Shown here piece by piece: positions 73 through 17,818 of a DNA stretch of 30,266 nt. The notes below the pieces were generated by a model. The model worked only from the letters and a program-made list of their open reading frames with translations. It searched no databases and was not told the origin of the DNA. How positions within the stretch are numbered: the first letter of the stretch is position 1; each line of letters starts with the position of its first letter. This DNA comes from Candidatus Raymondbacteria bacterium RIFOXYA2_FULL_49_16 (lineage in GTDB: Bacteria; Fibrobacterota; OXYB2-FULL-49-7; XYB2-FULL-49-35), in the NCBI GenBank assembly GCA_001789205.1, contig MFYT01000085.1:1-30266 (forward strand). Direction: 5' to 3'. The position numbers were made by a program, and so were the translations under genes.

Positions 73-957
73 TCATTGCCAGGTTAACCATTTAGACTCC
101 ATTGACTTGGCATAAATGGAAGGTTGAACATACTTAAAATCGTGTTTTACTCCAGTAAGCCCCTCGGAATGCCCTAAAAACAGATATCCGCCGGTATCCA
201 GATAATGATAAAATTTTGCTATCAGCTCCTGCTGGGTTGGTTTATCGAAATAGATAAGTACGTTCCTGCAAAAAATAACGTTAAGCGGGTTTTTAAATGG
301 GAATTCTTTCGCGATAAGATTCATGCGTCGGAACAAGGTTTTTTTCTTGACAAATTCCTTCACTCGATACCAATCACCGTCTTTTTCAAAATATTTTAGC
401 CGCTGGCCGGACGATACGGGTTTCAATTTTTCCTCATTATACACCCCATCTTCGGCTACCTTGAGCACATGGGTCGAGATATCCGTTCCCAAAATCATAA
501 CGTCATACGCGGTCATTTCCGGCCAGTATTCAAACATGGTTATAGCGAGCGAATACACCTCTTCGCCGGTGGAACATGCCGCGCTCCATATCCTGACCTT
601 ATTAAATTCCCGTTTTCTCATGCGCGCCTTGAGGTCTGGAATCACATTCCCTTCGAGAAAACTGAAGTGATGGTTCTCGCGGAAAAATTGGGTTACATTG
701 GTCGAAAGCGCGTCGAGCATTTCCACGACCTCGTGTCCGGACTTGTCTTCAATCGCGTATTTATAGTATTCCTTAAAAGATCCGAACCCGAAAGAGTGCA
801 GTCGTTTTGACAAACGGCTTTTAACCAGCGCTTTTTTATGCGACTGGATATTGATGCCGCATTTCTCATGAACAAAACCCCGTATAAGATCGAATTCAGA
901 ATCACTCAATTCGATTTCAATCGTTGCGGAAAACGCCTGCTGTCCAGATACCGACAT
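73..957 (-). CDS. cheR: Chemotaxis protein methyltransferase CheR
   Basis: This enzyme transfers methyl groups from S-adenosylmethionine to glutamates of chemoreceptors, setting adaptation together with CheB. At 294 residues it has the normal length. The N-terminal helical domain (about 15-90) ends in TNVTQFFRE, which is typical of CheR. The Rossmann methyltransferase domain follows, with the SAM-binding WSAACSTGEE, then GTDIS, then FCRNVLIYFD, and GHSEGL near the C-terminus. There is no C-terminal pentapeptide-binding TPR extension. The ATG at 957 follows an AAGGAT ribosome site. It is the last complete gene of the minus-strand chemosensory operon, separated from mcp by 63 bases that hold a strong hairpin. 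The identification is secure; only the cognate receptor set is unknown. Confidence 0.96.
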   Translation of the reverse strand: MSVSGQQAFSATIEIELSDSEFDLIRGFVHEKCGINIQSHKKALVKSRLSKRLHSFGFGSFKEYYKYAIEDKSGHEVVEMLDALSTNVTQFFRENHHFSFLEGNVIPDLKARMRKREFNKVRIWSAACSTGEEVYSLAITMFEYWPEMTAYDVMILGTDISTHVLKVAEDGVYNEEKLKPVSSGQRLKYFEKDGDWYRVKEFVKKKTLFRRMNLIAKEFPFKNPLNVIFCRNVLIYFDKPTQQELIAKFYHYLDTGGYLFLGHSEGLTGVKHDFKYVQPSIYAKSMESKWLTWQ

Positions 958-975
958 ACACCCATCCTTGTAACA

Positions 976-1008
976 AATTCCCTTGCGCCCAAACGGCGCA
1001 AGGGAATT
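976..1008 (-). terminator. Perfect 14-bp intercistronic hairpin between mcp and cheR
   Basis: The arms 976-989 and 995-1008 are perfectly complementary (AATTCCCTTGCGCC with its complement) around a 5-base loop. On the minus strand the stem is followed by AATTTGTTAC, which is only a weak T-tract. It could therefore be a leaky terminator that lowers cheR expression relative to mcp, or an mRNA 3'-end stabiliser. The cheR ribosome site begins only a few bases after it, so folding may also affect cheR initiation. Confidence 0.5.
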
Positions 1009-1020
1009 ACAATAAACGCC

Positions 1021-3264
1021 TCAGAAGCCCTTCATTTCCTCTTCCATGGGAATTATGTCATCGGCCGCTTTTTTAACTCCAACGCCTTTTACTGCGCGCG
1101 TTTTTCCCGGAAGCATTTGCTGCGGAGATCTCGGCTTTGGCTGCGCCGACTGATGCATAATATGGTGCTGCATGGGGCTTGACCCCTTCGCCTCTTTACC
1201 GCTGTTCGACAAGACAAAGGTATTGATCATGGCCTGCAATTCCTGGGACTGGGACGACATTTCCTCGGCAGCAGCCGCGGATTCCTCGGAATTGGCCGCG
1301 TTCTGCTGCACCACCTGATTCATCTGGTTCACAGCCACATTCACTTGCTCAATGCCCCTGTTCTGCTCACTGCTTGCGGCTGATATCTCTGCGATCAGGT
1401 CGTTTACCTTCTTAGATCCGTCGCCGATCTCTTTGAGAAATTTGGCCACCTCTTCGCTGATGGTGACTCCACCTTCAGCGTTCTTTACCGATTCTTCAAT
1501 GAGTTGCGCGGTATTTTTCGCAGCCTCAGCGCTGCGTTGGGCCAGATTACGCACCTCCTCGGCCACAACCGCAAATCCGCGGCCCGCTTCTCCGGCACGG
1601 GCCGCCTCAACAGCAGCGTTGAGCGCCAGCAGATTGGTCTGGAATGCGATTTCATCAATGGTCTTGACAATTTTGGCGGTTTCATCCGAAGACTTCTTGA
1701 TAAGTCCAATTGCCTGGGACATTTCACCCATGGCTTTGTTGCCCTGATCAGCGGATTTCTGCGCCGATGCCGCAAGGCTCTTGGCCTGATTTGCGCTTTC
1801 AGCGTTTTGCTTGGTCATAGCCGACATCTCTTCGAGACTCGATGATACTTCCTCAATGGAACTGGCCTGTTCCTGCGCGCCTTGCGACAGCGTTTGACTG
1901 CCAGCGCTGATCTGGTTACTGCCCGAGGCGACCTGTTCCACCGCAGTTTGAACTTGATTTAAAGCCATATCAATGGTCTTCAGCATGCTATTTATGTTTT
2001 CCACAAGCTGTCCGTATTTGCCGTCAAACTTTTCTGTTATTTGTTTCGTCAAGTCCTTTTTGGCAGCAGCTACCATACATGTTGTTACCGAATCGACCAA
2101 CCGGTCTGTTTCTTTCATCATTGTATCTATTTCAACGATATCCGTGACAAATTCCACGCCGCCAATCACTTCGTTTTTTTCATTCTGGAGCGGAGCGCCC
2201 GTGTATTGGATAGGTATCTTGGCTTGAGCATTGGGATTTGCCACAGTGCGCCCTGATGCGATGGCATTGTTCTGCATCGCCTGCTTGGTCCGGCACTCAG
2301 GAGTATTGCAATGGCTGGTTCTGAAGATATCAGCGCATTGCATTCCTTCGCATTCTTTTGGAGTCTTGCCCGCAAGCTTTGCGCCGGCTTCGTTCATGAA
2401 TATGACCCTCATGTTTTTATCCACTGCCATGACCGGCGTTGCGATCTTATTGAGCATATTAATCTTCTGTTTAATATTGCCAAGCATGGCTGAAAAGGCT
2501 CGTGCAAGCACACCAATTTCATCCGTGGAACGCGCTTCGATCACCTGATTAAGATCGCCTTCTGCCACACGGGTCGCGACATCCGCAAGTTTTCTCACCG
2601 GCCTGGTAATGGAAATCGTGAGAAACAGGCCCAATAGAAGCGCTACAATAAATCCAATGGCAATGGTGAGTGGCATAAGCCATTGGCTTGTCGCAACGCT
2701 CTCTTGCGCCGCCTTATCAACTAGTGCTATTAATTTGTCCAACGAAGCTCTAACTGCCATATATGCGTTCTTTGCCGGAGGCGCCAATTCATCGAGCAAT
2801 AGGCTGTCGAGAACAACCACCCTGGTGTCTTCCGTTGACGCACCGATTTGGAGAAGCCTCAGTTTTTCCTGGCAGTTTTTTACCATTGCATCATCGGCTT
2901 TTTGCCATGCCTCATGCAATTGAAGAAAATTGTTCCATTCAGCCTCTTCGTCACGGTTCTTATGCAAGGCTGCAAATTCCGATATTTTTTCAGGAATGAT
3001 CCTCTTGGCTTTTTCAATGCTCTCGAACTGGTCGTTAACAGTCTGCATATTCTTCCAGTAGCGTCGAAGCATGAGACCGCGTATTGCATACTGGACAGCG
3101 TTTTGCTGATCACCTATGGTCAGAAGCGACTGAACGCCGGGCAATTTATTGCCGCCAATGTCATTAATATTTGATATGCCAATTATTCCGATAAGTGCGC
3201 CAATGAGCGCTACGGCGAGAAATCCACCGATTAATTTTGGTCCGATTTTAATCGTGTTCATCAT
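1021..3264 (-). CDS. Methyl-accepting chemotaxis protein with periplasmic helical sensor, HAMP and Cys-rich PAS
   Basis: This transmembrane chemoreceptor controls CheA through CheW. TM1 is about residues 10-32, the periplasmic segment about 33-194 is mostly helical (4HB-like), and TM2 is about 195-218. HAMP spans about 219-270 and a cytoplasmic PAS about 268-380. The long signalling coiled coil follows, with the hairpin tip at about 536-572 ([19 protein letters not shown], then [17 protein letters not shown]). The PAS carries four close cysteines (C305, C310, C319, C324). The C-terminal tail of about 60 residues is charged and has no NWETF-like CheR tether. The start at 3264 has a near-perfect AAAGGAGGC site (3272-3280). 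Lying between cheW and cheR, it is the likely dedicated receptor of this system. Its ligand is unknown. Confidence 0.95.
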
Positions 3265-3302
3265 AAAGAGAGCCTCCTTTAGTTTTAAATAGTATCATAC
3301 TT

Positions 3303-3839
3303 TTATACATTGTCAGCAGTGGTTTGTATCTTTATAATATCCTCTTCAGTTAAAACCTTATCGATATCGAGTAAGATTTTGACCCCGCCCTTGGCCTTGG
3401 CCATACCTAAAATAAACTGCGTATCGAGTCCTGCGCCGAATTCTGGCGTATCTTCGATTTCTTGGGCTGTAATGTCTAATACTTCTGATACTGCGTCCAC
3501 CAATATGCCCATTTCCAAGGCCTCACCCGCTTTCTTGACCTCGACAACTATTATGCAGGTCTCCACTGTGTCTTCAAGGGCCTTCATGCCGAATTTAAGG
3601 CGTGTGTCCACTACAGGAATGACTTTACCGCGCAGATTGATCACCCCGCGTACCCAATCCGGAGTCCGGGGAATATGGGTAATATCCATAAGCCCGATGA
3701 TCTCCCTGACTTTCAATATCTCCAGACCATACTCCTCGTCTTCCAACCGGAAAGTCAGGTATTTTCCGGCCCGTTTGTCAGACGCGCCTTCTCTTTGGCC
3801 GCTTTTCTGTGCAACAGCCATGGATTCTGCTGACGCCAT
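3303..3839 (-). CDS. cheW: Chemotaxis coupling protein CheW
   Basis: This 178-residue scaffold links receptor tips to the CheA P5 domain. A charged extension of about 25 residues precedes one CheW/SH3-like domain (about 26-165), with the typical IMDITHIPRTPDWVRGVINL segment followed by RGKVIPVVDTRLKF. The length is slightly above the usual 150-170 residues because of the N-terminal extension. Its ATG shares one base with the cheA stop codon (TAATG arrangement) and has AAGGAGGA upstream, so translation is coupled to cheA. It is the only free-standing CheW here, and the P5 domain of CheA is the second CheW-like fold. The assignment is secure. Confidence 0.95.
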   Translation of the reverse strand: MASAESMAVAQKSGQREGASDKRAGKYLTFRLEDEEYGLEILKVREIIGLMDITHIPRTPDWVRGVINLRGKVIPVVDTRLKFGMKALEDTVETCIIVVEVKKAGEALEMGILVDAVSEVLDITAQEIEDTPEFGAGLDTQFILGMAKAKGGVKILLDIDKVLTEEDIIKIQTTADNV

Positions 3840-6499
3840 TATTCCTCCTTTGTATGAGTATAGGTGTTTGTTCCACTGTGTATTCCCTTTTTTACCGTTT
3901 CAAAGTTAATGTCCACCAACCCTTTCACATCCAGGATCAATCCGACGCGGCCATCCCCCAATATAGAGCACCCGGAAATGCCTTTTACATTACGAAAGTC
4001 CCCTTTAAGGCTTTTAATGACAACTTGCTGCTGGCCTACAATAGTGTCCACCATGATACCATAAGGCTTGCCCGCGTTCTCGATAATGATGATGATCGCG
4101 TTCCAGGGCTCAAAAACGGCCGGAGTTTCTCCGAACAATTGATACAGGCGAATGAGCGGAATGAGCGTACCCCGGACATTCACGACTTCTCCCTTGTTTT
4201 GGATGGTGGTAATATCACGTTGCGCTGGTTTGATGGATTCCTTGATGGCAATGACCGGCAATAAATACCGCTCATTGCCGACTTTCAGGATCATGCCATC
4301 AAGAATGGCCATGGTAAGCGGCAGCCGGACAGTGAACATGCTGCCTTTTCCCGGCTCGGAGCCAATAGCAACAGTGCCGCCCAGCTTTTCAATATTTTTC
4401 TTAACAACATCCATTCCCACGCCGCGGCCGGACACATCAGTCACTACTTTGGCAGTGGAAAACCCCGGCAGAAAAATCAAACCGAACAACTCCTGGTCAT
4501 CGAGCTTCATTTTAGCGTCGATTAAACCTTTTTCAATGGCTTTGCTCCGTACCGCTTCCCTGTCCAGTCCCTTGCCGTCGTCCTTTACCTCCAGAACGAT
4601 ATTTCCGCCCTGATGAAAAGCATTGAGGCGGACACATCCTGTTGCAGCTTTCCCTGCCGCGATCCGTTCTTCCGGTGTCTCAATACCGTGGTCAACGGCG
4701 TTCCTGATCATGTGCACCAAAGGATCGTTGATCTGTTCCACAACATTTTTATCAAGTTCGGTTTCCGCTCCTGTGATGACAAGATCGACCTTTTTTCTGG
4801 ATTTCATGGAAAGGTCCCTGATCAGCCGGGCCATTTTCTGGAATGTTTGCTTGACCGGCACCATGCGCAGCGACATGGCCACCCATTGGATATCACGTAC
4901 GATTTTGGTAAGATGCCCGGCGTTTTTCGATAGGACGGCATCCCGGCTGCCCACGATATGCGGATGCTGGGCAATCAGGGTCTGTGAAATGACCAACTCG
5001 CCCACAATGTCGATGAGATGGTCAAGTTTTTCCGTGGAAACTTTGACCGCGCCAATGTCCCCCTTGCTTGCGCTGTCCATCTGCTGGCGCAAAGCGTCAG
5101 ATATTCTTCGCGGCGTGACTTTTTCCTGTTCAATAAGGATTTGCCCGATTTTTTTTCCCATGTCTTCTCTGGCCTGCAGCGACAATGCCTCCGCTAAATC
5201 GGTCTTGCTGACCGCCTGCGCTTCGACCAGTATCTCCCCAACTTTCTTTTCCATCTGCATCGGAATATCCTGAACATTTACGGGAAACGGTCCGGCCTTC
5301 CGTTTGGCATCCAGCGTGCTTTGAATATTCTGGAGAAGCGCCTCAACTGCCGGATACTCATCGTCTGAAAACCCCGCGCCCTTTATCTGCTGTTCTAAAA
5401 GATTGTCCAGGCGCCGCAACACGTCCACCACCTCAAACACTAAGTCGATACCTTCACGGTCTATCGCGAGTTTACCGCTGCGTGCAAGGTCCAGAAAATT
5501 CTCGGTTGCATGGGAAATCCGGTTTATATGTTTCAGGGACAAAAAACCGGACACGCCTTTAATGGTATGCAGCGGTCTGAAAATTTCATTTAAAATATCC
5601 GTGTTTCCAGGATTGGTCTCCAATTCAAGGACCATGACCTCAATGCGTTCCAGATGTTCGCGCATCTCATGGATAAAGTCCGTATAAATGGAAATGTCTC
5701 CAATCTCCGTTGTATTGATTCTTTCCACCTCTCGTGTGGAAGGGGGTTCTGCGGCAGCTGATGCTGTCGCCGGGACAGATTTGAGCGTAGCTTTGAGCCC
5801 TGTGAGCATTTCTCCCTGGGCGGGAAAAAACTGTTCTATGGCAAGGAAGGGTGAGTTGCCGCACAGTTCAAAAGTCTTTTTCACCACATCCACAATGCTC
5901 AACAGGTCATTGGCTGTTTTACCGTCAATTGCTATTGGTTTTTCGCGCAGTATTGAAAAAACACCTTCAAAATGGTGCAAAAGCTCCGCAATACCCGGCA
6001 ACCCGGCAAAACCGGTCTCACCCTTGAGCGTATGAACAATCCGGAAAATTCCATTGATAAGATTGCTATTCAAACTGTCTTTTTCCAGCTCCAGGATGTT
6101 TTGTTCCAATTCTTCGATCATACTCATTGCACCGAGCGCATATTCACGAAGATCTTTTTCCTGGTCTAGCCCCAAAGCACGAATATTGGTTGAAACCAGA
6201 GGCTCGGAAGATTGACCGGAACCGTTCACTGCTCCTGGATCGGGAAGCGCGCCAACCTGTTTCTCCAGCGCAGTAATGGCTTTCTGTTTGTCCTTATATT
6301 CCCTCATGATAAAAGCTTCAAACGCTTCTTTCAATTCTGTCAAACGCGGCTGGTAAATAGTATCATTTGCTTGTGTTGCCAAGGCCAGCGCTTTTCCGGT
6401 TGCGGCAACCAGTTTTCCAACAGACGACAGATCAGACCATTCCACACTCGCCAATAGTAGTTTAAGGTCCTGGATCAGGGATGTAAGTGTTTCAGCCAT
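3839..6499 (-). CDS. cheA: Chemotaxis histidine kinase CheA with two HPt domains and an MshEN-like insert
   Basis: This is a dimeric kinase that autophosphorylates on its HPt domains and passes phosphate to receivers. At 886 residues it is longer than the usual 650-700. Order: an unassigned helical region (1-90); HPt1 about 115-215 with H156 in IVHTLKGETGF; HPt2 about 270-370 with H311 in PLHTIKGVSGF; and a tandem 24-residue repeat (419-442 and 450-473) of the form KVGEILVE..DLAEALSLQ that resembles MshEN c-di-GMP-binding motifs. Then come the dimerisation domain (about 484-550), the HATPase with N600 in HMIRNAVDHG, DDGKG (640-644) and GRGVGMD (691-697), and a CheW-like P5 (about 730-870). 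All catalytic motifs are intact. The gene lies 13 bases after the HTH-REC gene and overlaps cheW by one base. Confidence 0.95.
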   Translation of the reverse strand: MAETLTSLIQDLKLLLASVEWSDLSSVGKLVAATGKALALATQANDTIYQPRLTELKEAFEAFIMREYKDKQKAITALEKQVGALPDPGAVNGSGQSSEPLVSTNIRALGLDQEKDLREYALGAMSMIEELEQNILELEKDSLNSNLINGIFRIVHTLKGETGFAGLPGIAELLHHFEGVFSILREKPIAIDGKTANDLLSIVDVVKKTFELCGNSPFLAIEQFFPAQGEMLTGLKATLKSVPATASAAAEPPSTREVERINTTEIGDISIYTDFIHEMREHLERIEVMVLELETNPGNTDILNEIFRPLHTIKGVSGFLSLKHINRISHATENFLDLARSGKLAIDREGIDLVFEVVDVLRRLDNLLEQQIKGAGFSDDEYPAVEALLQNIQSTLDAKRKAGPFPVNVQDIPMQMEKKVGEILVEAQAVSKTDLAEALSLQAREDMGKKIGQILIEQEKVTPRRISDALRQQMDSASKGDIGAVKVSTEKLDHLIDIVGELVISQTLIAQHPHIVGSRDAVLSKNAGHLTKIVRDIQWVAMSLRMVPVKQTFQKMARLIRDLSMKSRKKVDLVITGAETELDKNVVEQINDPLVHMIRNAVDHGIETPEERIAAGKAATGCVRLNAFHQGGNIVLEVKDDGKGLDREAVRSKAIEKGLIDAKMKLDDQELFGLIFLPGFSTAKVVTDVSGRGVGMDVVKKNIEKLGGTVAIGSEPGKGSMFTVRLPLTMAILDGMILKVGNERYLLPVIAIKESIKPAQRDITTIQNKGEVVNVRGTLIPLIRLYQLFGETPAVFEPWNAIIIIIENAGKPYGIMVDTIVGQQQVVIKSLKGDFRNVKGISGCSILGDGRVGLILDVKGLVDINFETVKKGIHSGTNTYTHTKEE

Positions 6500-7201: not shown

Positions 7202-7380
7202 TATTTAATTTTAGTTAACTCAAAGTTAATTTGGTCTGAAATAAATTTTATATACTATTAAAGGTAATCATAATGTATATCATAAATTTTGATATTTTAT
7301 TAGGATAAAACATACGCCATTTCTTGGATTATTGAGAACTCTTGCATATCTTTGTCAAATTAAATATCTTTGAAGTTATT

Positions 7381-8973
7381 ATGAATATATGGGCTTGGCC
7401 ACCCCTTGTGTCAGCAATTGTCTGTTTTTTCCTTGGCAGTTTTGTTTTTTTCAGTAATTCGCGACCGCTGATAAACAAGCTCTTTTTAAGCTTTTGTCTT
7501 CTCGCCGCATTTATCGCTTTTGCCCAATTCATGGCCCGTCAGTCGGAGAGTGCGGCAGGAGCTTTCTATTGGATAAAAGCCTACGCAACATGGCCAATTC
7601 TTCTAGCCCTTCAATTCCATTTCATTTTTCTATATATAAATACTGATAAGGTACTGAAAAGAGCAAACTTACTGGTTCATCCACTTGTTTACTTACCAGC
7701 ATTGTTCTTTGTCTATATACTTCTTTTCACGGATTCAATCATATCCGGGCCTATCAAGATGTATTGGGGATATACCGGCAGAATTTCAACACACTCCCTT
7801 ACAGCACTGGCACTTGGGTTTTGGTCTATTTTCATATCGTTTTCAACATTGTTCCTGTCCTTCCAACATTATAAGAACGCGAACACGCTTAAGATGAAAA
7901 AACAAGCGAAACTCATTACTATCGGTCTCTCTTTCAATGTTTTTACCAGTATTTTCACCGAGGCCCTGCCGCTTATGTTACAAATGCAAAAACCGGAAAT
8001 GACCGCCATGTTCGGTCTGGCTGTTCCTATTTTTTTCGGATATGCTATTAAAAAATATGACTGGTTGGCCCTGTCCCTTAATTCCCTGGGAGAACAGATT
8101 GTATCAAGCATATCCGACTGCCTCTTTGTAATTGATATGAATGGAAACATACACACAGTGAACCAGACCGCCGTGAATATACTGGGGTTTTCCCGCCAAG
8201 AATTGCACGGCCGTCCCATAGATATGGTAATCACATATACGGACATCGAGCGGCCATTCATGCCGAACGCTACCGCCAATTTGCACGCCAGCGGCGTCAG
8301 TGATATCAACGCTTTTCTGATTAAAAAAGACGGTAAAAAAACGCCGATTTCCCTTTCCACGTCCTTGATGGACGATGAGGACGGACGTTTCCAGGGCATT
8401 GTCTATATCGCAAAAGACATTACCCGGCGAATACAATTGGAGCAGGACATAAAGGAGATGGAACAACGCTTTCGGATGCTGTTTGATTCCGCACCAGACG
8501 CCTATTATCTGAACGACCTGACCGGAACCTTCATTGACGGCAACAAGGCCGCGGAGAGTTTATTGGGATATCCTAAGGAGGAGTTGATTGGGAAAAGTTT
8601 CCTGAAACTGAAGATATTAACACCAGTCCAGCTTCTCAAGGCATCTTCTCTTTTGGCAAGAAACGCCCTGGGTAAAGCCACAGGTCCGGATGAGTTCATT
8701 CTGACCCGTAAGGACGGCAGCAAAATTACCGCGGACATCAGGACATGCGTGATTAAAATCAAAGGCAAGCCTGTTGTCTTAGGAAGCGCCCGGGACATTG
8801 GCGAACGTAAAAAGACCGAGGAGGCGCTTCAGCAAAGCCTCAATGAACTCGAACTCTTTTCACACCGCACCATTGGCCGGGAAATAAGGGTCATTGAACT
8901 GAAGAAAGAAATCAATGTGCTGCTGCGTTCGCAGGGGCGGCCTGAAAAGTATACGACCAGCGATGAAGGATAA
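7381..8973 (+). CDS. 7TM-PAS-PAS membrane sensor without a kinase domain
   Basis: This 530-residue protein senses a signal but has no H-box or ATPase domain. Residues 1-225 are hydrophobic with about seven membrane helices, resembling the 7TM N-terminal region of some histidine kinases. Two PAS domains follow (about 238-352 and 360-480). The C-terminus (about 488-524) has FSHRTIGREIRVIELKKEIN followed by a short LLRSQGRPEKY tail. I recall similar tails at the end of PAS modules, before a kinase domain or a stop. The ATG at 7381 is preferred over an in-frame TTG at 7342 because it leads directly into the first hydrophobic helix. Only 5 bases separate it from the next kinase gene, so the two probably act as a split receptor-kinase. 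The AT-rich region upstream (7202-7380) shows no promoter I would call. Confidence 0.88.
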   Translation: MNIWAWPPLVSAIVCFFLGSFVFFSNSRPLINKLFLSFCLLAAFIAFAQFMARQSESAAGAFYWIKAYATWPILLALQFHFIFLYINTDKVLKRANLLVHPLVYLPALFFVYILLFTDSIISGPIKMYWGYTGRISTHSLTALALGFWSIFISFSTLFLSFQHYKNANTLKMKKQAKLITIGLSFNVFTSIFTEALPLMLQMQKPEMTAMFGLAVPIFFGYAIKKYDWLALSLNSLGEQIVSSISDCLFVIDMNGNIHTVNQTAVNILGFSRQELHGRPIDMVITYTDIERPFMPNATANLHASGVSDINAFLIKKDGKKTPISLSTSLMDDEDGRFQGIVYIAKDITRRIQLEQDIKEMEQRFRMLFDSAPDAYYLNDLTGTFIDGNKAAESLLGYPKEELIGKSFLKLKILTPVQLLKASSLLARNALGKATGPDEFILTRKDGSKITADIRTCVIKIKGKPVVLGSARDIGERKKTEEALQQSLNELELFSHRTIGREIRVIELKKEINVLLRSQGRPEKYTTSDEG

Positions 8974-8978
8974 CAGCC

Positions 8979-10172
8979 ATGATCTCTTCTGAATATATCA
9001 TAGAGACCATGAACGAAGCCTTGTTCATTGTAAAGATAGGCGGTGAGATTGAAATGGCGAATGCGTTTGCACACCGTCTCTTGGGATACGAAGCTAATGA
9101 ACTGACGGGAAAGGACATTGATACGATCCTGCTGGAAGAAGACACTCCAGTCCAAGGAGTGAAATTCGGCGATTATGTAATGAACTTCACCCCGAATAAA
9201 AAGGAAAGTTTTCTGCTGTCAAAGGGTATGAAGAAGATACCGGTTTCCTTTACAGCTTCGATTATACAAGAGCCCGACAGTGACATACAAAAGATCATAT
9301 GCATTGCGCAGGACATGGCCGATTGGAAACAAGTAGAGGAAACCCTGCGTGCGCATATGAGAGACTGTGTTCTTGCGCGTGCCGCGTCTCTGAGCATGAT
9401 GGAAGACGCCATGGAAGCGCGGGAGATGGCCGAGGCCGCGCACGCAAAGCTCCAAAAACTGAATCTGGAGCTCGAAGAACGCACGGCCCAACTTCAGGCG
9501 GCGAATAAGGAACTCGAGGCGTTTTCCTATTCGGTGTCGCACGATCTCCGAAGCCCATTACGGGCCATCAACGGATTCAGCAACGCGCTCCTCGACGACT
9601 ACAACGACAAGCTGGACGGACAAGGCAAAGACTACCTGCACCGTATCCGCAAGGCTTCCCAGAATATGGGGGTCCTCATCGACGCAATCCTGAAGCTTTC
9701 CCGAACAACGCGCTGCGTCATACATTCCGAAAGAGTCAATATGAGCGCACTGGCCGAGGAAACCGCGGCCGGACTCAGGCAGCTCCACTCCGACCGGACT
9801 GTCATATTCCGCATTACGCCCGGAATGGAAGCCATGGGGGACAAAGTCCTTCTGCGGCAGGTTTTGGAAAATCTCCTTGATAATGCTTGGAAATTCACGG
9901 AAAAGCAACCGCGGGCCGAAATCATTTTCGACACAACTGAACAGGATGGAAAACAGGTCTTTTTCGTCAAAGACAATGGCGCAGGATTTGACATGGCATA
10001 TGCGGAAAAATTATTTACGCCTTTTCAGCGTCTCCACTCAGAGCAAGAATTTCCCGGTGTCGGTGTTGGGCTGGCCAATGTCCAGCGAATCATCACCCGG
10101 CACAATGGAAGGATTTGGGCGGAGGGCTGGGAAGGAAAAGGCGCTACTTTTTATTTTACCATGCAATTATAA
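8979..10172 (+). CDS. PAS sensor histidine kinase, Cph1-like kinase module
   Basis: This is a soluble 397-residue kinase. A PAS domain (about 1-115) is followed by a coiled-coil linker (about 120-180) and a HisKA domain with H188 in FSYSVSHDLRSPLRAINGFS. The ATPase domain has N302 (NLLDNAWKF), KDNGAGF (331-337) and GVGVGLANV (360-368). This FSYSVSHDLRSPL class of DHp is typical of phytochrome-like kinases that pair with Rcp1-type receivers, and such a receiver is encoded 11 bases downstream. GAAGGA overlapping the previous stop serves as ribosome site. It has no membrane segment of its own, which fits it taking input from the upstream 7TM protein. Confidence 0.93.
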   Translation: MISSEYIIETMNEALFIVKIGGEIEMANAFAHRLLGYEANELTGKDIDTILLEEDTPVQGVKFGDYVMNFTPNKKESFLLSKGMKKIPVSFTASIIQEPDSDIQKIICIAQDMADWKQVEETLRAHMRDCVLARAASLSMMEDAMEAREMAEAAHAKLQKLNLELEERTAQLQAANKELEAFSYSVSHDLRSPLRAINGFSNALLDDYNDKLDGQGKDYLHRIRKASQNMGVLIDAILKLSRTTRCVIHSERVNMSALAEETAAGLRQLHSDRTVIFRITPGMEAMGDKVLLRQVLENLLDNAWKFTEKQPRAEIIFDTTEQDGKQVFFVKDNGAGFDMAYAEKLFTPFQRLHSEQEFPGVGVGLANVQRIITRHNGRIWAEGWEGKGATFYFTMQL

Positions 10173-10183
10173 GGGGCGTGTAC

Positions 10184-10633
10184 ATGGAAAGAAACAGACT
10201 CATCCTATTGGTGGAGGACAACCAGGACGACGAATTGTTGACATTAAGGGCGTTTAAAAAAAGCGCTATTCTGAATACGGTGATGGTGGTGCGCGATGGA
10301 GCAGAGGCCCTGGATTACCTTTTCAACGCAAGCGCCTTTTCGGTCAACGAACCACATCGCCTTCCCGAGGTCGTTCTGCTTGACCTTAAACTCCCCAAAG
10401 TCGACGGATTGGAGGTGCTTCGCCGCATCCGGGCAACAGAACGGACAAAACTTCTTCCCGTGGTGGTCCTGACATCGTCAAAAGAGGAAAGGGATGTTGT
10501 TGAAAGTTACCGCCTGGGCGCAAACAGCTACATCCGCAAGCCTGTGGATTACAACCAATTCGTCAATGCCGCCAACCACTTGGGCCTCTACTGGCTTGCC
10601 CTGAATGTGCCTCCGAACAGGGAGGCGCAATGA
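10184..10633 (+). CDS. Rcp1-type single-domain response regulator
   Basis: This 149-residue stand-alone receiver begins [19 protein letters not shown]. It contains the acidic pair E11/D12, the phospho-acceptor D67 in [13 protein letters not shown], the Thr/Ser of VLTSSK and K119 in [10 protein letters not shown]. The length and the C-terminal helix match the Rcp1/phytochrome-partner family, which has no output domain. The ATG at 10184 follows AAGGGGCG at 10171-10178. The upstream in-frame codons overlap the kinase gene and are unlikely to be used. It sits between a kinase and a hybrid kinase, so it may shuttle phosphate between the two. Confidence 0.93.
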
Positions 10634-12696
10634 GCAAAACGCTCCACGTATTGATAATTGAGGACTCCGAAGACGACGCCCTGCTGCTTCTTCGCGGTCT
10701 CGAAAGCCACGGATATCAACCCGTGTCGGAAAGAGTTGAAACCGCGGACCGCATGTACGCGGCAATAGACCATCAATCCTGGGACGTGGTCATATCGGAC
10801 CACCGCATGCCGCATTTCAGCGCCTTCGAAGCGCTTGCGGTGCTGAAAGAAAAGCAGCGGGACTATCCGTTCATCATTGTTTCGGGAGCGATTGGGGAAG
10901 AGACCGCGGTTGAACTCATGAAAATGGGTGCGCACGACTATATCATGAAGGACAATATCGCCCGGCTTTTTCCCGCTATTGAACGTGAAATGCAGGATGC
11001 CGAAGTCCGGAAAAAACGCAAGGACGCGGAACGGTCGCTTCAGGCGAGTGAAGAGAAATACCGGACCCTTGTGGAGACCATTCCGGACATCGTCTACCGC
11101 GTGGATCCCAACGGCGTATTTACCTTTATCAGCGAGTCTATTCATCAATTGGGATATGCGCCGGAAGACCTTATCGGCAAACATTTCAGTTCCATCGTAC
11201 GGCCGGACGAAGTCGCATTGGTCAGCCGTGCGCTTGTTCTGCCAAAATACAAAGGCCAAACCACTGGGGCCGGGAACGCTCCCAAACTGTTTGATGAAAG
11301 AAGGACAAAAGACCGGATAACACAAAACCTGGAGATCCATCTGCTTTCACATGCCTCCCGGACTGCATGTACGCAAGAAGAGCCGCTGCCGGAGCATTCC
11401 CCCCAGGTCTTCTCCGTATTGTTCGCATCGGGTTTGTACGACGACACGATAAGCAACCCGGACAAAAATTTCCTCGGTTCCATTGGAATAATCCACGATG
11501 TCACCGCGAAACACCGCGCGGAAAAGGAGCTCAAAGAGGCGAAAGAGAAGGCTGAAGCGGCAAGCAAGGCAAAAAGTCAGTTCTTAGCAAATATGAGCCA
11601 TGAAATCCGCACACCGTTGAACGGCATAGTGGGAATGGCCCAGCTTTTAGAGGGCACCGCGTTGACCAAGGAGCAGAAAGAATACCTGGAAGATATTATC
11701 GCGTCGGGAAGACTGCTGATCAGCATTGTCGACGAAATACTGGACCTATCAAGGATCGAGGCGAGAAAAATAGAATTACATAAAGCTCCCTTCAATTTCC
11801 ATAAAGCCATCTGCGAAATCAAGGACCTGTTGAGCGGAAGCGCACGGCAAAAAGGGTTGGAACTGTTTCTGGAAACAGCGCCAAACATTCCGGCGGACCT
11901 CGTTGGCGACCAAAGTAAGATAATGCAGATCTTTTCGAATGTAGTGCACAACGCGATAAAATTCACCGTGCAGGGCCGCGTAATGATAACCGTATCGGGT
12001 GAACGGGAAGGGAGCCTCTTTACCTGCCGCATCCTGGTCGAAGACACCGGTGTCGGAATCCCCAAAGACAAACAAGAAAAGATATTCGAGGAGTTCTACC
12101 AGGCGGACAGCCGGACGACCAAGGACTATTCGGGAATAGGTCTCGGATTATCAATCAGTCGGAAGTTGTTAAAACTGATGGGGGGCGATATAAGCGTTAC
12201 AAGCGTTCCTGGCCAGGGTTCGGCGTTCCGTATCACCCTTCCTCTAACAATCGCCGAAAACCTTCCCAACACAAACCCATCGAGGACAAACGCGCCTGTC
12301 TTATTGTATCCGGTCAGGATTTTAGTGGTCGAAGATCAGCTCATCAACGCGAAACTGTTAAAACGCATGCTCGAATTGCTTGGCGCCACAGTTCTTCTGG
12401 CCGCACACGGCAGCGAAGCATTGGACATATTGGGGAAAGAGGACGTGGCCATCGTCTTTATGGATTGTCAAATGCCGGTAATGGATGGCTACGAGGCGAC
12501 ACGCCGCATCCGGGACGCTTTTTCGAATGTGCGAAACCACGATGTCCCTGTCATCGCCATAACAGCTTTCGCCATGGAAGAAGACAAGGAAAAATGCCTG
12601 CAAGCGGGAATGAACGATTATATATCAAAGCCATTCCTGAAGAAAGACGTTGAAGCGGCATTACGGACATATGCCGCCCCCCGTAAAATGCCTTGA
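10630..12696 (+). CDS. Hybrid histidine kinase REC-PAS-HisKA-HATPase-REC
   Basis: This soluble 688-residue hybrid kinase starts in an ATGA overlap with the Rcp1-like gene. The N-terminal receiver (about 5-122) has D57 in VVISDHRMP. The PAS (about 140-298) carries an insertion near 205-258 containing [17 protein letters not shown]. The kinase core has H324 in [17 protein letters not shown]441, EDTGVGIP (471-478) and GIGLGLSIS. The C-terminal receiver (about 562-685) has D612 in [11 protein letters not shown] and K667. Both receivers look functional. A kinase that begins with a receiver can be switched by an upstream kinase, so the 8979-10172 kinase may feed it. No output domain exists in this operon, so the final target is encoded elsewhere. 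Confidence 0.93.
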
Positions 12697-12718: not shown

Positions 12719-14218
12719 TCATTCTTGCTGCTGGGCGGCTTTCTCCAGGTTGATGATTTTTGTGCCTTCAAGATACTCTTTGACTTCGTATTTGGTGACA
12801 TGGTTCAGCTTCGTAGTTATTTCGGCAAAACGCATAACCTGTTCCTGAATGCGCTGCGCCCATTTTACGCTTTTGAGATCGGCCTTCACATTTTTAAGTA
12901 ACAGGTCGGTATAGCCCAGAATGGCCTGCAACGGCTGGTTGAGTTCATGGCATGCCGCGCCAGCCATCTCAAGCACGCCTGCCATGCGTTCAGCGTGGAG
13001 TTCCTGCGCTTCAGCCAATTTGCGCTGGGTAAGGTCTCGATTAAAAATAACGCATCCCCGGTACTGTCCTTCCGGCGTAAATAAGGCTTTAACTTTCCTC
13101 CAAACCGTAATACGGACACCGTCCTTGCGCACCATGATGGTCTCAAACTCATAAAACCCGTTGCGCCTGATTGTGTCCATGATCTGGTACAGACGGTCGT
13201 GGAATTGGACGGGGATGAGTTCTCTGAGCCCCTTGCCCACCACATCTTTCCAGCTATAACCCGTAAGGTCCTCGTGCATTGAATTGACGTCAATAACGCG
13301 GTCCTCGGCATCGATGATTTCTATGGCATCGGGTGCCGCCTCAAAGAGCATCCGGTAAATGGTTTCGCGTTCACGCGCTATTTCCTCAAACTGATGGCAC
13401 TCTTCCTCCACGCCAATGGCGCGCGAGATAATGCTCAGTACCTGTTTCTGGTCTTCGGTGAGTGCTGCACAGTTATTAAAGACCATGCAGATAATTCCTG
13501 TTGGCCGGTCAAAACTGAAAACCGGATAGCCAATGGAAACAGCCGTGGGTTTGTCCGCGCTGCTCTTCCGTTCCATGAGCGGGCACAATTCCTCAAGGTT
13601 GTCAAATACATAGGTGGTATCCATAGTAGCTTTCATGATAATATCGACGCACACATGGCCGCAGGGTATCTTGTTCACGAGTTGAGCGACAGGCGCGTTC
13701 CACTGCGCCTCTGTGACCATGTTTTCCCCTTGCAGTTTGTTGTAGAGCGCGTACGAGGCCCCAAGTACCCTGGCGCACATCTCGATAAGAATCGCGAGAT
13801 TATCGTGATAGTCATGACCCATGCTCACAAAAGCGTTATTGAGATCAATCAGGTTTTTTTCATACCGTTTGCGCACCGAGATATCGTTCACAATGGAATA
13901 GACCATGCGTTTGCCTTGTTCGGTAAAAAGGTGGCAATGCGCCTCAACTGGGGTCTTTTCATTGTTCTTTTTTATCAGAATGCGTTCGAATATGCCATCC
14001 CCATTTTTTACAAGGTCCGCTGTCTGCATGGCAAAAACGCCGGGCTCGTGTTCGAACGTAATGTCTGAAAAAGATCGCTGGCACAATTCCTCACGGGAAT
14101 ACCCAACCAGATCGCACGCGGCTTTGTTCACCTCGATAAACGGGCTGGGCATATTGCCGGGAAGCAGTTCAAAGACAAATTTAGCATACCTGCTGATTTT
14201 AAAAAAAGTCTGATACAT
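12719..14218 (-). CDS. PAS-GAF-PAS protein ending in an orphan DHp (HisKA) domain
   Basis: The 499 residues contain a PAS (about 15-118), a GAF-like domain (about 122-275, several cysteines), a second PAS (about 285-400) and a HisKA helical hairpin (about 405-470) with H424 in AACHELNQPLQAILGYTDLL. The protein ends about 75 residues after the histidine. There is no N-box, no DxGxG and no G2 box, and only 22 bases remain before the convergent neighbour, so the ATPase domain is really missing and not frameshifted. The C-terminal KYEVKEYLEGTKIINLEKA looks like a conserved finish, not a random truncation. GGAAGG precedes the ATG at 14218. It lies 46 bases after the REC-STAS gene and is the last member of that operon. 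Confidence 0.9.
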   Translation of the reverse strand: MYQTFFKISRYAKFVFELLPGNMPSPFIEVNKAACDLVGYSREELCQRSFSDITFEHEPGVFAMQTADLVKNGDGIFERILIKKNNEKTPVEAHCHLFTEQGKRMVYSIVNDISVRKRYEKNLIDLNNAFVSMGHDYHDNLAILIEMCARVLGASYALYNKLQGENMVTEAQWNAPVAQLVNKIPCGHVCVDIIMKATMDTTYVFDNLEELCPLMERKSSADKPTAVSIGYPVFSFDRPTGIICMVFNNCAALTEDQKQVLSIISRAIGVEEECHQFEEIARERETIYRMLFEAAPDAIEIIDAEDRVIDVNSMHEDLTGYSWKDVVGKGLRELIPVQFHDRLYQIMDTIRRNGFYEFETIMVRKDGVRITVWRKVKALFTPEGQYRGCVIFNRDLTQRKLAEAQELHAERMAGVLEMAGAACHELNQPLQAILGYTDLLLKNVKADLKSVKWAQRIQEQVMRFAEITTKLNHVTKYEVKEYLEGTKIINLEKAAQQQE

Positions 14219-14264
14219 CTACTGCCTTCCGGTAAAAATATTTCAACCCAGAAGGATCCCGATC

Positions 14265-15101
14265 TCACGCGCTAACGGCAGTAATTCCTTCATGGTCGAT
14301 AAATTCCTCTTCGTCGTGGTAAATCGTAATGACCCTGCCCAGATTGAGGTCCTGCAGTTTGCTCTTCAGATATGCATTTCCCGACACCAACCGCAAAACG
14401 CCCTTTTTTTCCTGTATCTGCTTCCAGAGAAAGACAATGGCGCCCATGCCAAAGTTGTTGATGAGGCGTACCTGGGTAAAATTGATCATGATGTTCAATA
14501 TGCCCTTTGCTAGGACCGATTCAACCGCGTCGCGCACTTTTAACGCTGCGTCGCTTACCAGCTCGCCCTTAACATCAACCACCACAAACCCGCCTAATTC
14601 ACGCGTTCTTATTGTCAGGTCTTTGTTCGTGTAGAAACTATGAGACACCGGGTTTGGCCTGATTTGACTGAGTTTTTCGATATATTTATTGAACGAATAC
14701 CGGTATTTACGTTCCTTTTCCATGAGATCTTCAATGCGTTTGAGCAGCGTGGCCGGGGCAAAAGGCTTGTCCAGATATTCCCTGCACCCGCGCTGCATCA
14801 GCTGGAGAAGAAGTTCCTTGTCGCCATAACCGCTCATGGCAAGCACAGGAAGGTAAATACTTTCGTTCTCAATGGCTTCCAGGAGCTGCACGCCGTTTAA
14901 TTCGGGCATTTGCACGTCCGTAATGAGCAAATCAATGATTTCGCCCCTGCTCTCGGAATTGACAATTTCATCGTACGCGGCGCGGCCGTTGTGCGTGGTA
15001 AGAACCAGGTGGCCGCTGTTCGACAGCACATCAAAAAGGTTTTGCCGCACAAAAGCGTCATCTTCGGCAATGACAATGCGAAGGGCGTGAGTTTGACTCA
15101 T
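14265..15101 (-). CDS. Receiver-STAS fusion protein
   Basis: This 278-residue protein has an intact receiver (about 7-125) with E13/D14/D15, D62 in LITDVQMPELNG, S90 and K112 in LDKPF. A short linker leads to an anti-sigma-factor-antagonist-like STAS domain (about 160-270). The STAS segment QVRLINNFGMGAIVFLWKQI aligns with the phospho-serine loop of SpoIIAA-like proteins. The usual D-S-S-G is replaced by N215-N216-F217-G218, so the phosphorylatable serine is absent. The output is therefore likely controlled by receiver phosphorylation and not by a serine kinase. Its ATG overlaps the stop of the upstream pseudo-receiver gene (ATGA). The partner (anti-sigma factor or other switch kinase) is not in this window. 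Confidence 0.9.
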   Translation of the reverse strand: MSQTHALRIVIAEDDAFVRQNLFDVLSNSGHLVLTTHNGRAAYDEIVNSESRGEIIDLLITDVQMPELNGVQLLEAIENESIYLPVLAMSGYGDKELLLQLMQRGCREYLDKPFAPATLLKRIEDLMEKERKYRYSFNKYIEKLSQIRPNPVSHSFYTNKDLTIRTRELGGFVVVDVKGELVSDAALKVRDAVESVLAKGILNIMINFTQVRLINNFGMGAIVFLWKQIQEKKGVLRLVSGNAYLKSKLQDLNLGRVITIYHDEEEFIDHEGITAVSA

Positions 15102-15490
15102 ACTTGGACTGCCTTTTTAACATAAAGACGGGCAATAACATCGGTCACTTCATTTATATTTACCGGTGGAATAAATTTGCAGAGAACGCTGCGTTTGACC
15201 GCCTGGGCCTGCAGGTCAACGGAATCGTTGTGAAGCACCGCGACAACTGGTACGCTGTTGCCATACAGATCGTGTAATGCATCAATGGCCTGCAGGCCAT
15301 CCATATCAGAGAGTAAAGTAGATATGACCGCTGCAAGTGGTTTGTGTTTCCTGAATTCAACGAGTAGTTCCCTGCCTTGGGAAAAAGCCTCTACCGCGAT
15401 ATCGAGCGATCCCATGCGTTCGACAAAATCGCGGATAAACGCGACATCGGTATGGGCTATATAAATAATTGATTTCTCTTTTTTATCCAT
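15098..15490 (-). CDS. Pseudo-receiver domain protein
   Basis: This 130-residue protein has the length and fold pattern of a single receiver, but the active site is gone. The beta-1 acidic pair is A12-H13 (YIAHTDVAF). The phospho-acceptor position is S57 in AAVISTLLSDMDGLQ, the Thr/Ser position is L86 and the conserved Lys-Pro is P108-P109 (KFIPPV). The hydrophobic pattern and the DMDG turn remain, which shows common descent. It is the first gene of a three-gene operon and overlaps the REC-STAS gene by four bases. It could work as a phosphorylation-independent dimerisation or adaptor module. A diverged active receiver seems unlikely because all five key positions are changed. Confidence 0.85.
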   Translation of the reverse strand: MDKKEKSIIYIAHTDVAFIRDFVERMGSLDIAVEAFSQGRELLVEFRKHKPLAAVISTLLSDMDGLQAIDALHDLYGNSVPVVAVLHNDSVDLQAQAVKRSVLCKFIPPVNINEVTDVIARLYVKKAVQV

Positions 15491-15730
15491 TTCGTGAAAA
15501 ACACCCTTCCAACGCCCTCAACGCAACGTGCGTGCCACAAAAACAGAGACTTGAAAACAATGGGGTTAGATTATAACACTGTGTAATGAAATGAGTTCCT
15601 GATAGATGAACAAGAGAAACCGTAGCCAAAAAGAGACGAAATTTAAGCTACAAATTCTGCTACGCGTTTTTTATCAGGCGGTTACGAGATGTTGCCCAAA
15701 AGAGACACGTTGCGTATGAGGTACGGGGAT
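15491..15730. other. Intergenic region without a recognised gene
   Basis: This is the first part of the 336-base gap between two minus-strand genes. Apart from the extended -10 candidate and a short inverted repeat (ACGCA-ACG-TGCGT near 15530) I see nothing. No convincing reading frame with a ribosome site is present on either strand. Confidence 0.5.
15570..15578 (-). promoter_or_regulatory. Extended -10 promoter candidate for the pseudo-receiver operon
   Basis: Read on the minus strand the sequence is TGTTATAAT, a match to the extended -10 element TGnTATAAT. It lies 79 bases upstream of the start codon at 15490. No good -35 box is visible (GAACTC at a 17-base spacing), which is acceptable for an extended -10 promoter. 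Confidence 0.4.
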
Positions 15731-15794: not shown

Positions 15795-15826
15795 ACCGCT
15801 GCCTGAGCGGAGCCGAAGGCAGCGGT
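15795..15826. repeat. REP-like hairpin, copy 2, abutting the activator stop codon
   Basis: Arms ACCGCTGCC and GGCAGCGGT form a 9-bp stem (10 with the adjacent T-A pair) around a core that on the minus strand reads CTTCGGCTCCGCTCAG. That is the inverted, diverged form of the copy at 15731-15756. It ends one base before the TAG of the sigma-54 activator gene. It may act as a transcript 3'-end or stabilising hairpin for that gene. There is no T-run, so it is not a canonical terminator. Confidence 0.6.
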
Positions 15827-17818
15827 CTATCCCCTGAAATTTTTTGGCGTTATCTTGAAATTCTGAAGAATTCTGTGGAACGAAGCGCGGTTAACACCCG
15901 CATGTTTTGCGCATTGGACAATATTGCCGTGGTATTTCTCCAGCAGGCCGGTGATATACTCTCGTTTGGCTGTTTCGAGATAATCATCGAGCGCTGGAAA
16001 TTTGTCCAAAGGCCCGCTGGTTTTTGTCTTGTATTTGATCTTCGAGGGAAGCTCGGCAAGAGTGATATCTCCGTCCGAGCTGAGCAAAAACATCTCAAAA
16101 AGCGTGTTTTCCAATTCCCTGATATTGCCCGGCCAGGGATATGCCAATAACCCGGCAAGTGCGTCGGCAGACACCCCTTTAATGGGAACCACAGGCTGGT
16201 TTGTGTTGAATTTCTTGATAAAATATTCAACAAGCAATGGAATGTCGCCTGTTCGGTCGCCTAGGCGCGGCAGTTCTATCTTCACCGCATTGAGACGGTA
16301 ATAAAGATCCTCCCTGAAGGTGTTATCAGCGATCATTTTCTCTAGGTCTTTGTTGGTAGCGGAAATGATCCTGACATCAACGGCCAATTCATCTTTTCCA
16401 CCTATGCGCCTAATCTTACGCTCCTGTATAACACGCAGCAGTTTTGCCTGGAGCTTATAGTTCAGGTCGCCTATTTCATCGAGAAACAATGTTCCGTGGT
16501 CAGCCCATTCAAAAAGGCCGCGTTTGGTCTGGAGCGCACCGGTAAAGGCGCCCTTTTCGTACCCAAAGAGCTCACTCTCAAGCAGGGTATCGGGCAGGGA
16601 CGCACAATTGACCGGAATAAATGCGTTGTTGCAGCGAGGACTTTCACGATGGATCGCATGCGCGGCAAGCTCCTTGCCAGTGCCGGTCTCGCCCACCACC
16701 AACAGGTTTGCGTCGCTTTTTGCCAAACGACTGATAAGTCCGCGCACTCCCTGCATGGCCGGACTGTCGCCCACCATGAGATCCGCAAACCGCGAATTGC
16801 TACCTTTTTCAGACAAACTCTTTTTCTTCGCCGTAAAGGTCTCGGCAACCACAGCGTTGAGGCCATTGAGATCAACCGGTTTTTTCATCACATGGTCAAT
16901 GTGCTTTTTCTTCGCATAGTGGCGCAGTTCCTGGTCGTTGAGAACGCCAGTGAGCAGGATGGTTTTAATATTGGGTAGATGGGCGCGCAGCTTCTCAATA
17001 AGCGCCACGCCATCCATGCCGGGCAATTTAAAGTCAATGATGCCAAGTTTGTACTTTGCGCCCACGAGGTTCTGCAAACATGTGGCCGGATCGTTGAACA
17101 CGTTGCACACATGCCCTTTTTCTTGTAAAATTTCCCTGAGCAGGTCGGCCAAAAACTGCTCATCGTCGACAATAAGGATCTCGGCATGCGCAGTGTTCGG
17201 AACGCGCGCTGCGCTGGAAAACGGCCGTACCGGCCCTGTCTCGGCCAAAGCGGCGGGATTGTTGAAGACAAGCTTTCTGATGGTATCGAGCAGGGTATTT
17301 GAACGCACAGGCTTGGCAATATATACCGTACGATCGTCGATGATCTTTTTAATTTCAGCCGACAATCCATAGCCGGTAAGCAGGATGATGTTGATGCGAG
17401 GATTTATCCCGCGCATGATCGCAAGGCATTCTATGCCGTTCATGTCCGGCATTTTCATGTCCAGGACCACTGCCGAGATACGTTCGTGCTCTTTTTTGAA
17501 ATGCTCTATTGCCGGCTGGCAATGGCCGAACAAGGCGCAAGGGATCTGCTCGTCGCTAAAAATATCGCCGAACATCTGGAGGAGCTGGACATCGTCGTCA
17601 ACTACCATGATTTCACCAAGCGACCTGGTATCGGCGGCATTGGGTGTTCTTGTGCCAGCAATTAATCTTGCGCCTTTTTCACACGTCGCCATAATGGTTT
17701 CAATGTAACCGAGAAGTTCGCTATTGGCCCCGGCCTTTTTCTGGAGCATCTCGGCGCTCAATAGAATAGACCCAAGTACATTATTCAGATCGTGAGGGAA
17801 ATCCGGCGTATATTCCAT
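15827..17818 (-). CDS. Sigma-54-dependent activator with N-terminal DHp stub and two receivers
   Basis: This 663-residue enhancer-binding protein opens sigma-54 promoters by ATP hydrolysis. Residues 1-55 form a helical hairpin starting FPHDLNNVLGSILLSAEMLQ, which looks like the H-box of a histidine kinase (H9) without any ATPase domain. Receiver 1 (about 68-185) has D120 in VVLDMKMPDMNG. Receiver 2 (about 212-330) has D262 in IIDFKLPGMDG and K313. The AAA+ domain (about 345-575) has GETGTGKE (376-383), GAFTGA (423-428), which contacts sigma-54, and Walker B FLDEIGD. A Fis-type helix-turn-helix is near 615-655. All motifs for activity are intact. The ATG at 17818 has no clear ribosome site. 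It is divergent from the 979-residue hybrid kinase. Confidence 0.93.
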   Translation of the reverse strand: MEYTPDFPHDLNNVLGSILLSAEMLQKKAGANSELLGYIETIMATCEKGARLIAGTRTPNAADTRSLGEIMVVDDDVQLLQMFGDIFSDEQIPCALFGHCQPAIEHFKKEHERISAVVLDMKMPDMNGIECLAIMRGINPRINIILLTGYGLSAEIKKIIDDRTVYIAKPVRSNTLLDTIRKLVFNNPAALAETGPVRPFSSAARVPNTAHAEILIVDDEQFLADLLREILQEKGHVCNVFNDPATCLQNLVGAKYKLGIIDFKLPGMDGVALIEKLRAHLPNIKTILLTGVLNDQELRHYAKKKHIDHVMKKPVDLNGLNAVVAETFTAKKKSLSEKGSNSRFADLMVGDSPAMQGVRGLISRLAKSDANLLVVGETGTGKELAAHAIHRESPRCNNAFIPVNCASLPDTLLESELFGYEKGAFTGALQTKRGLFEWADHGTLFLDEIGDLNYKLQAKLLRVIQERKIRRIGGKDELAVDVRIISATNKDLEKMIADNTFREDLYYRLNAVKIELPRLGDRTGDIPLLVEYFIKKFNTNQPVVPIKGVSADALAGLLAYPWPGNIRELENTLFEMFLLSSDGDITLAELPSKIKYKTKTSGPLDKFPALDDYLETAKREYITGLLEKYHGNIVQCAKHAGVNRASFHRILQNFKITPKNFRG

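Follow-up and report, generated by a model that had tools for sequence, protein, structure and literature searches.

A cross-phylum class of DHp proteins without an ATPase domain, and a member encoded beside a REC-STAS fusion and a pseudo-receiver in a Candidatus Raymondbacteria genome

We found that the third of three genes lying in series on the minus strand of the window (the whole stretch of 30,266 nucleotides analysed here) encodes a histidine kinase-like protein belonging to a class spread across phyla, whose members keep the phospho-acceptor histidine of the DHp domain and end in a conserved tail in place of the catalytic ATPase domain. The gene in front of it encodes a receiver fused to a STAS domain, and the first of the three a receiver-like protein. 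The reading that we tentatively favour, while giving it somewhat less than an even chance, is that the DHp protein is a branch of a split histidine kinase and that Asp62 of the REC-STAS protein replaces the serine switch of STAS proteins, in an operon linked to sigma54.

The ORF check returned the three genes at the coordinates first stated (table 1). The co-directional, tightly packed layout given in the preliminary description was reproduced: the pseudo-receiver and REC-STAS genes overlap by four bases (ATGA), 46 bases separate the REC-STAS gene from that of the 499-aa protein, and all three frames are intact. The Pfam scan and the residue alignment also agree with its claim that each gene lacks a standard part of its family. 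Each lack alone is uncommon rather than remarkable, since pseudo-receivers account for ~6% of the receivers of bacteria (PMC12632262) and 3.66% of all HisKA proteins have no HATPase (PMC3591291). The label "silent", which had been attached to the set, is misleading, because one REC and one DHp domain retain every residue needed for phosphotransfer.

Table 1. Positions of the three genes, their key residues and neighbouring features in the window.
Feature	Positions	Strand	Remark
Convergent hybrid kinase, REC-PAS-HisKA-HATPase-REC	10630..12696	+	Nearest complete kinase; candidate trans donor, by position only
PAS-GAF-PAS-DHp gene, catalytic ATPase absent	12719..14218	-	499 aa
Conserved C-terminal tail TKYEVKEYLEGTKIINLEKAA, residues 475-495, in place of ATPase domain	12734..12796	-	From class comparison
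H424 codon, HELNQPL	12947..12949	-	Invariant in 50/50 class members
REC-STAS gene	14265..15101	-	278 aa
D62 codon, predicted REC phospho-acceptor	14916..14918	-	Position computed from ORF
Pseudo-receiver gene	15098..15490	-	130 aa, stand-alone
sigma54-type promoter site, TGGCAC-N5-TTGC	15523..15537	-	32 bases upstream of pseudo-receiver start codon
Inverted repeat, 10-base perfect arms, directly after activator gene	15795..15826	-	Possible terminator
sigma54-dependent activator: DHp-like N-terminus (PHDLNNVLG), two REC, AAA+, weak Fis-type HTH	15827..17818	-	HisKA E 0.0011, HTH_8 E 0.024, both below cut-off

In the 499-aa protein, Pfam detected HisKA (E 6.3e-8), two PAS domains and a weak GAF domain (E 0.0099, below cut-off), and gave no hit to HATPase, in agreement with the earlier claim that the third gene has no kinase ATPase. 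A lost ATPase could not be accommodated, because only 22 bases lie between the stop of its gene and that of the convergent hybrid kinase gene. A frameshifted or truncated kinase was considered and rejected, since these 22 bases are too short for an ATPase remnant and class members end at the same residue. The C-terminal 99 residues match a 219-aa REC-DHp protein at 43.5% identity, encoded on a plasmid of Desulforapulum autotrophicum. A DHp-terminal profile was built from this pair and four more sequences and used in wide searches, in which the last ~95 residues of the 499-aa protein matched a cross-phylum class made of a DHp domain and a tail with the consensus KYxTKxYxxxxKIIDIDxSS. Every protein hit by the profile at better than ~1e-18 stops no more than 14 residues from where the profile does. 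The first ordinary kinase appears at 8.7e-17 and continues for 311 residues, and the weaker hits mostly continue for 95-384 residues. Four weaker hits end early, within ~20 residues (L165, L122|3-1583, L138 and L195); among these, L165 and L122|3-1583 do so by locus end or reading frame, and L138 is a short REC-DHp protein. In the Myxococcota members read, 4-76 residues follow the tail, and HATPase is still absent.

The class was found in a Desulforapulum plasmid, in many Desulfobacterota, in ~30 genomes of the window's own phylum, and in 41 of 112 Myxococcota genomes at E <= 1e-15; the 499-aa protein is its sole member in its genome. The N-terminal parts vary and include REC, PAS, REC-PAS, HDOD-PAS, HAMP and beta-propeller-PAS. 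The phospho-acceptor histidine is invariant in the 50 distinct members compared, the window protein included, and their tails keep Tyr/Phe482, Ile/Met488, Asp/Asn490 and mostly Ser495. Judged from these comparisons, the lack of an ATPase is not damage but a state conserved throughout a class, because proteins from several phyla end at the same point with the histidine kept. Archaeal response regulators built in this way are described as never studied experimentally (PMC5847659). These nonenzymatic histidine kinase-like proteins ("possible incomplete histidine kinase" in P2CS) resemble the window protein in their N-terminal PAS/GAF domains and a C-terminal HisKA that has the histidine and no HATPase; that study describes them for archaea, and its available part mentions neither the tail nor the pairing with a downstream kinase seen in Myxococcota (PMC5847659). 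In a recurrent cluster of the phylum, the tailed class is represented by HAMP-DHp proteins (L230-L241). These membrane-bound proteins were set aside as evidence on partners: they are uninformative because the one locus scanned, L239, has metabolic and envelope genes rather than signalling genes as neighbours (a patatin-Omp85 protein, AA_kinase-PUA, an aldehyde dehydrogenase family protein, PRA-CH and alanine racemase).

Of the 30 Myxococcota loci read, 22 have a complete HisKA-HATPase kinase gene immediately downstream of the class gene and in the same orientation (18 at first reading and four more once the loci were extended), although these are not 22 independent events because some loci are close relatives. 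No kinase was found in the fetched stretch of the other eight loci, which reached up to ~5 kb (one stretch was shorter). This gene order favours trans-phosphorylation and lends indirect support to the kinase in trans proposed in the preliminary description. In Desulfobacterota, most class members have no adjacent kinase. The kinases nearest to the operon in the window are convergent or divergent, and none lies inside it. Separation of the two halves of a kinase has precedents: split HisKA/HATPase pairs of EnvZ are functional in vitro, and CheA3/CheA4 of Rhodobacter sphaeroides are a natural case, the acceptor and ATP-binding parts being on different proteins in both (PMC3591291). The acceptor of CheA is a P1/Hpt domain, whereas the window acceptor is a DHp domain, its kinase gene would lie outside the operon, and its trans-phosphorylation is putative. 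Elsewhere in the window, at 7342-10172, a 7TM-PAS-PAS gene stands five bases ahead of a PAS-HisKA-HATPase gene of the same orientation; the two represent either a sensor kinase split between two genes or a single gene interrupted by a frameshift. A chemosensory cluster with CheR, a HAMP-PAS chemoreceptor, CheW and a CheA with two Hpt matches occupies 73-6499.

The REC-STAS protein matched both of its domains in Pfam (REC 7e-22, STAS 6.4e-13) and scored 48.4 bits against TIGR00377, under the cut-off of 53.45. Its receiver is complete (E13, D14, D62, S90 and K112), so the designation of D62 as an intact phosphorylation site stands. In the motif D-S-S-G of SpoIIAA and RsbV, the phosphorylated residue is the first serine (Ser58 of SpoIIAA). 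The STAS domain of the window protein reads NNFG at this motif (INNFG for MDSSG), with asparagine for the phospho-serine. Ser or Thr occupies the phosphosite in 33 of the 36 STAS domains aligned from this genome; the window protein is one of the three exceptions, which bears out the reported loss of the serine. In this protein an aspartate switch seems to have taken the place of serine phosphorylation. The solved structures closest to the STAS domain are TM1081 (1.3e-5) and SpoIIAA (7e-5). Like these anti-sigma factor antagonists and RsbV, the window protein has a STAS domain; unlike SpoIIAA and RsbV, it has this domain fused to a receiver and carries Asn at the phosphosite, and neither a gene for an RsbW-type kinase nor one for a sigma factor was found beside the operon among the window genes scanned. 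RsbW-type domains are present on other contigs of this genome. The genome has undergone a large STAS expansion, with 57 matches to the domain, several of them paired in tandem, against only seven RsbW-type HATPase_c_2 matches over the cut-off.

Among the fetched sequences, the STAS half is nearest to other STAS domains of the same genome. The REC half is near the receivers of REC-SpoIIE phosphatases encoded beside RsbW-STAS fusions (L208, L209). It also resembles the receiver of REC-HisKA-HATPase proteins (L334, 44%), so the STAS-side logic of the receiver is not fixed by its ancestry. REC-SpoIIE/PP2C regulators with RsbW-STAS partners, whose receivers in genomes G249 and G213 are 37% identical to that of the window protein, share with it a receiver input to a STAS-type partner switch; in those systems the receiver controls a phosphatase that acts on a separate STAS protein, whereas here it is fused to the STAS domain itself. 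A model of the whole REC-STAS protein from its single sequence reached a pLDDT of 48 and was set aside. At two loci in other genomes of the phylum (L344, G068:C46; L339, G076:C271), a HATPase-STAS fusion comes after a receiver protein of ~400 aa, as at the REC-SpoIIE loci L208 and L209. Elsewhere in the genome of the window, at G000:C100:9478-12386 (L345:979-3887), a STAS-PAS-PAS-HisKA-HATPase gene comes after a gene for a lone receiver, and a divergent STAS gene adjoins; the parts are of the same kinds as in the window operon, fused differently and with the ATPase present.

The 130-aa protein was detected by Pfam as Response_reg at E 2.6e-5, under the curated cut-off. Its model has the (beta-alpha)5 receiver fold with a pLDDT of 89.7 and matches receivers in Foldseek at E 1.8e-9, and is supportive rather than independent, because the underlying alignment included the window's true receivers and may favour a receiver fold. 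Alignment to the receiver of REC-STAS places H13/T14 at the acid pair E13/D14, S57 at the phospho-aspartate D62, L86 at Ser90 and P108 at Lys112. All the catalytic positions are thus replaced, as the preliminary description had claimed for the first gene. Bacterial pseudo-receivers such as CmrT and FrzS likewise combine a receiver fold lacking catalytic residues with a place beside two-component genes (PMC12632262); compared with them, the window protein is a stand-alone domain adjoining a REC-STAS gene.

In front of the three genes, TGGCACGCACGTTGC at 15537-15523, read on the coding strand, is the window's only perfect match to TGGCAC-N5-TTGC, the consensus for sigma54. The number expected is 0.12, an optimistic figure because the pattern was picked after the sequence was seen. 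Allowing one mismatch gave 4 matches against 3.2 expected in the window, so that the perfect match alone carries weight. The adjacent activator is a likely local regulator of the operon, and its N-terminus possibly represents a second ATPase-less DHp domain beside it, to go by the PHDLNNVLG motif. The inverted repeat between the two may end the activator transcript and so separate the activator from the operon. Synteny of this activator with REC-kinase loci was considered and rejected; there is no special synteny, because its best matches are unrelated sigma54 regulators. The sigma54-type site, the adjoining activator with its DHp-like start and the 57 STAS domains are new relative to the preliminary description.

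The same three genes were sought elsewhere. No second REC-STAS protein came up among 166 other genomes of the window's phylum or 148 genomes of the phylum of a Desulfuromusa genome (Desulfobacterota-type), and a pattern scan covering 84,980 species genomes gave none either. These searches scored only the top candidates or required conserved short patterns, so they show that the protein is rare and not that it is absent elsewhere. The orthologue candidates with long alignments (L201-L209) all proved to be receivers without STAS (plasmid hits H2-H16 were not individually checked); L208 and L209 are in fact REC-SpoIIE genes adjoining HATPase-STAS genes. The preliminary description had named a neighbourhood not conserved in relatives as a result that would refute its proposal, and for the neighbourhood this is what the searches gave; from these comparisons a conserved three-gene system is not supported. 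The pairing of REC-STAS with the DHp protein gets no support from co-conservation, because the fusion was seen in one genome only; it is read here as lineage-specific. A literature search on REC-STAS, or on histidine kinases without a catalytic domain in trans, found nothing specific.

Several other explanations of the set have to be weighed. The DHp protein might be a dedicated phosphatase or phosphate sink, removing phosphate from REC-STAS~P or another receiver in response to a PAS/GAF signal, which we consider rather unlikely. The residue at H+4 is polar in all 50 class members (Gln in 35, the window protein among them, and Asn in 15), which speaks for this role. Kinases with the HELNQPL motif, FixL for example, may nevertheless act as phosphatases. 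A phosphatase role for HisKA proteins without HATPase was also proposed by Galperin and colleagues (PMC5847659). At the Desulfobacterota locus L223, a REC-DHp protein is accompanied by a lone receiver, an Hpt-like stand-alone sequence (AHSLKG), a REC-HD-GYP protein and a hybrid kinase (the Hpt and HD-GYP assignments were made by eye); the DHp-terminal protein there need not be the phosphotransfer element, because the Hpt-like sequence, the receiver and the hybrid kinase stand alongside. On the other hand, Asn or Thr at H+4 is needed for the phosphatase activity of tested HisKA kinases, and an Asn-to-Gln change there abolished that of CrdS, while in four tested HisKA kinases the Glu at H+1 was needed for kinase and not for phosphatase activity (PMC3510030). 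An acceptor is favoured over a phosphatase because the Glu is kept in 49 of the 50 members and H+4 is mostly Gln, and since this Glu serves the kinase reaction, its conservation suits a DHp domain that is phosphorylated in trans by a separate catalytic domain.

It is distinctly improbable that the DHp protein works only by binding receivers, as a dimerising scaffold or a competitor, and that no phosphoryl group is passed on. Pseudo-kinases and pseudo-receivers that act by binding are known or proposed (DivL; CmrT: PMC12632262), and the operon itself includes a pseudo-receiver, but a phospho-acceptor histidine invariant across phyla is not expected of a pure scaffold. The three genes, unrelated or decaying, might also have come together only recently and have no joint function. 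This view draws on the restriction of REC-STAS and its neighbourhood to this genome, on the solitary position of the DHp-terminal protein there, and on a pseudo-receiver with no close relative among the fetched sequences (the nearest at 4e-7). It is nevertheless improbable in our judgement, as the frames are intact and tightly packed with a perfect sigma54-type site in front, and the DHp form is a selected, cross-phylum form and not a truncation.

According to the split-kinase reading that we prefer, the three genes probably form one operon, transcribed from the sigma54-type promoter and controlled by the adjacent activator. Its last product would be a soluble PAS/GAF sensor that provides, in its DHp domain, the acceptor half of a split histidine kinase. 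H424 would be phosphorylated in trans by a complete kinase, for which the convergent hybrid kinase is the best candidate, and the phosphoryl group would pass from H424 to D62 of REC-STAS. Binding of the STAS domain to its partner would then be switched by the state of Asp62 in its own receiver, since the serine target of an RsbW-type kinase is absent. Through binding to the DHp or REC domain, the pseudo-receiver may tune these interactions. An intact receiver beside a lost STAS phosphosite, set against the 33 domains that keep Ser or Thr, counts for this reading; the position of the nearest kinases outside the operon, and the lack of an RsbW-type kinase or sigma factor alongside, count against it. 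A broader proposal, which we regard as doubtful but worth stating, is that the tailed DHp domains make up a distinct cross-phylum family of split-kinase acceptors, that the tail is functional, for example in docking the partner kinase, and that one member has here been wired to an aspartate-switched STAS domain.

With these results, HisKA proteins without ATPase, so far "incomplete kinases", become a class that can be defined by its sequence signature and its conserved end point, and that in Myxococcota has a kinase gene recurring next to it. The Myxococcota gene pair makes the split-kinase idea directly testable, and the REC-STAS protein offers a natural experiment in which an aspartate switch seemingly stands in place of the serine-phosphorylation switch.
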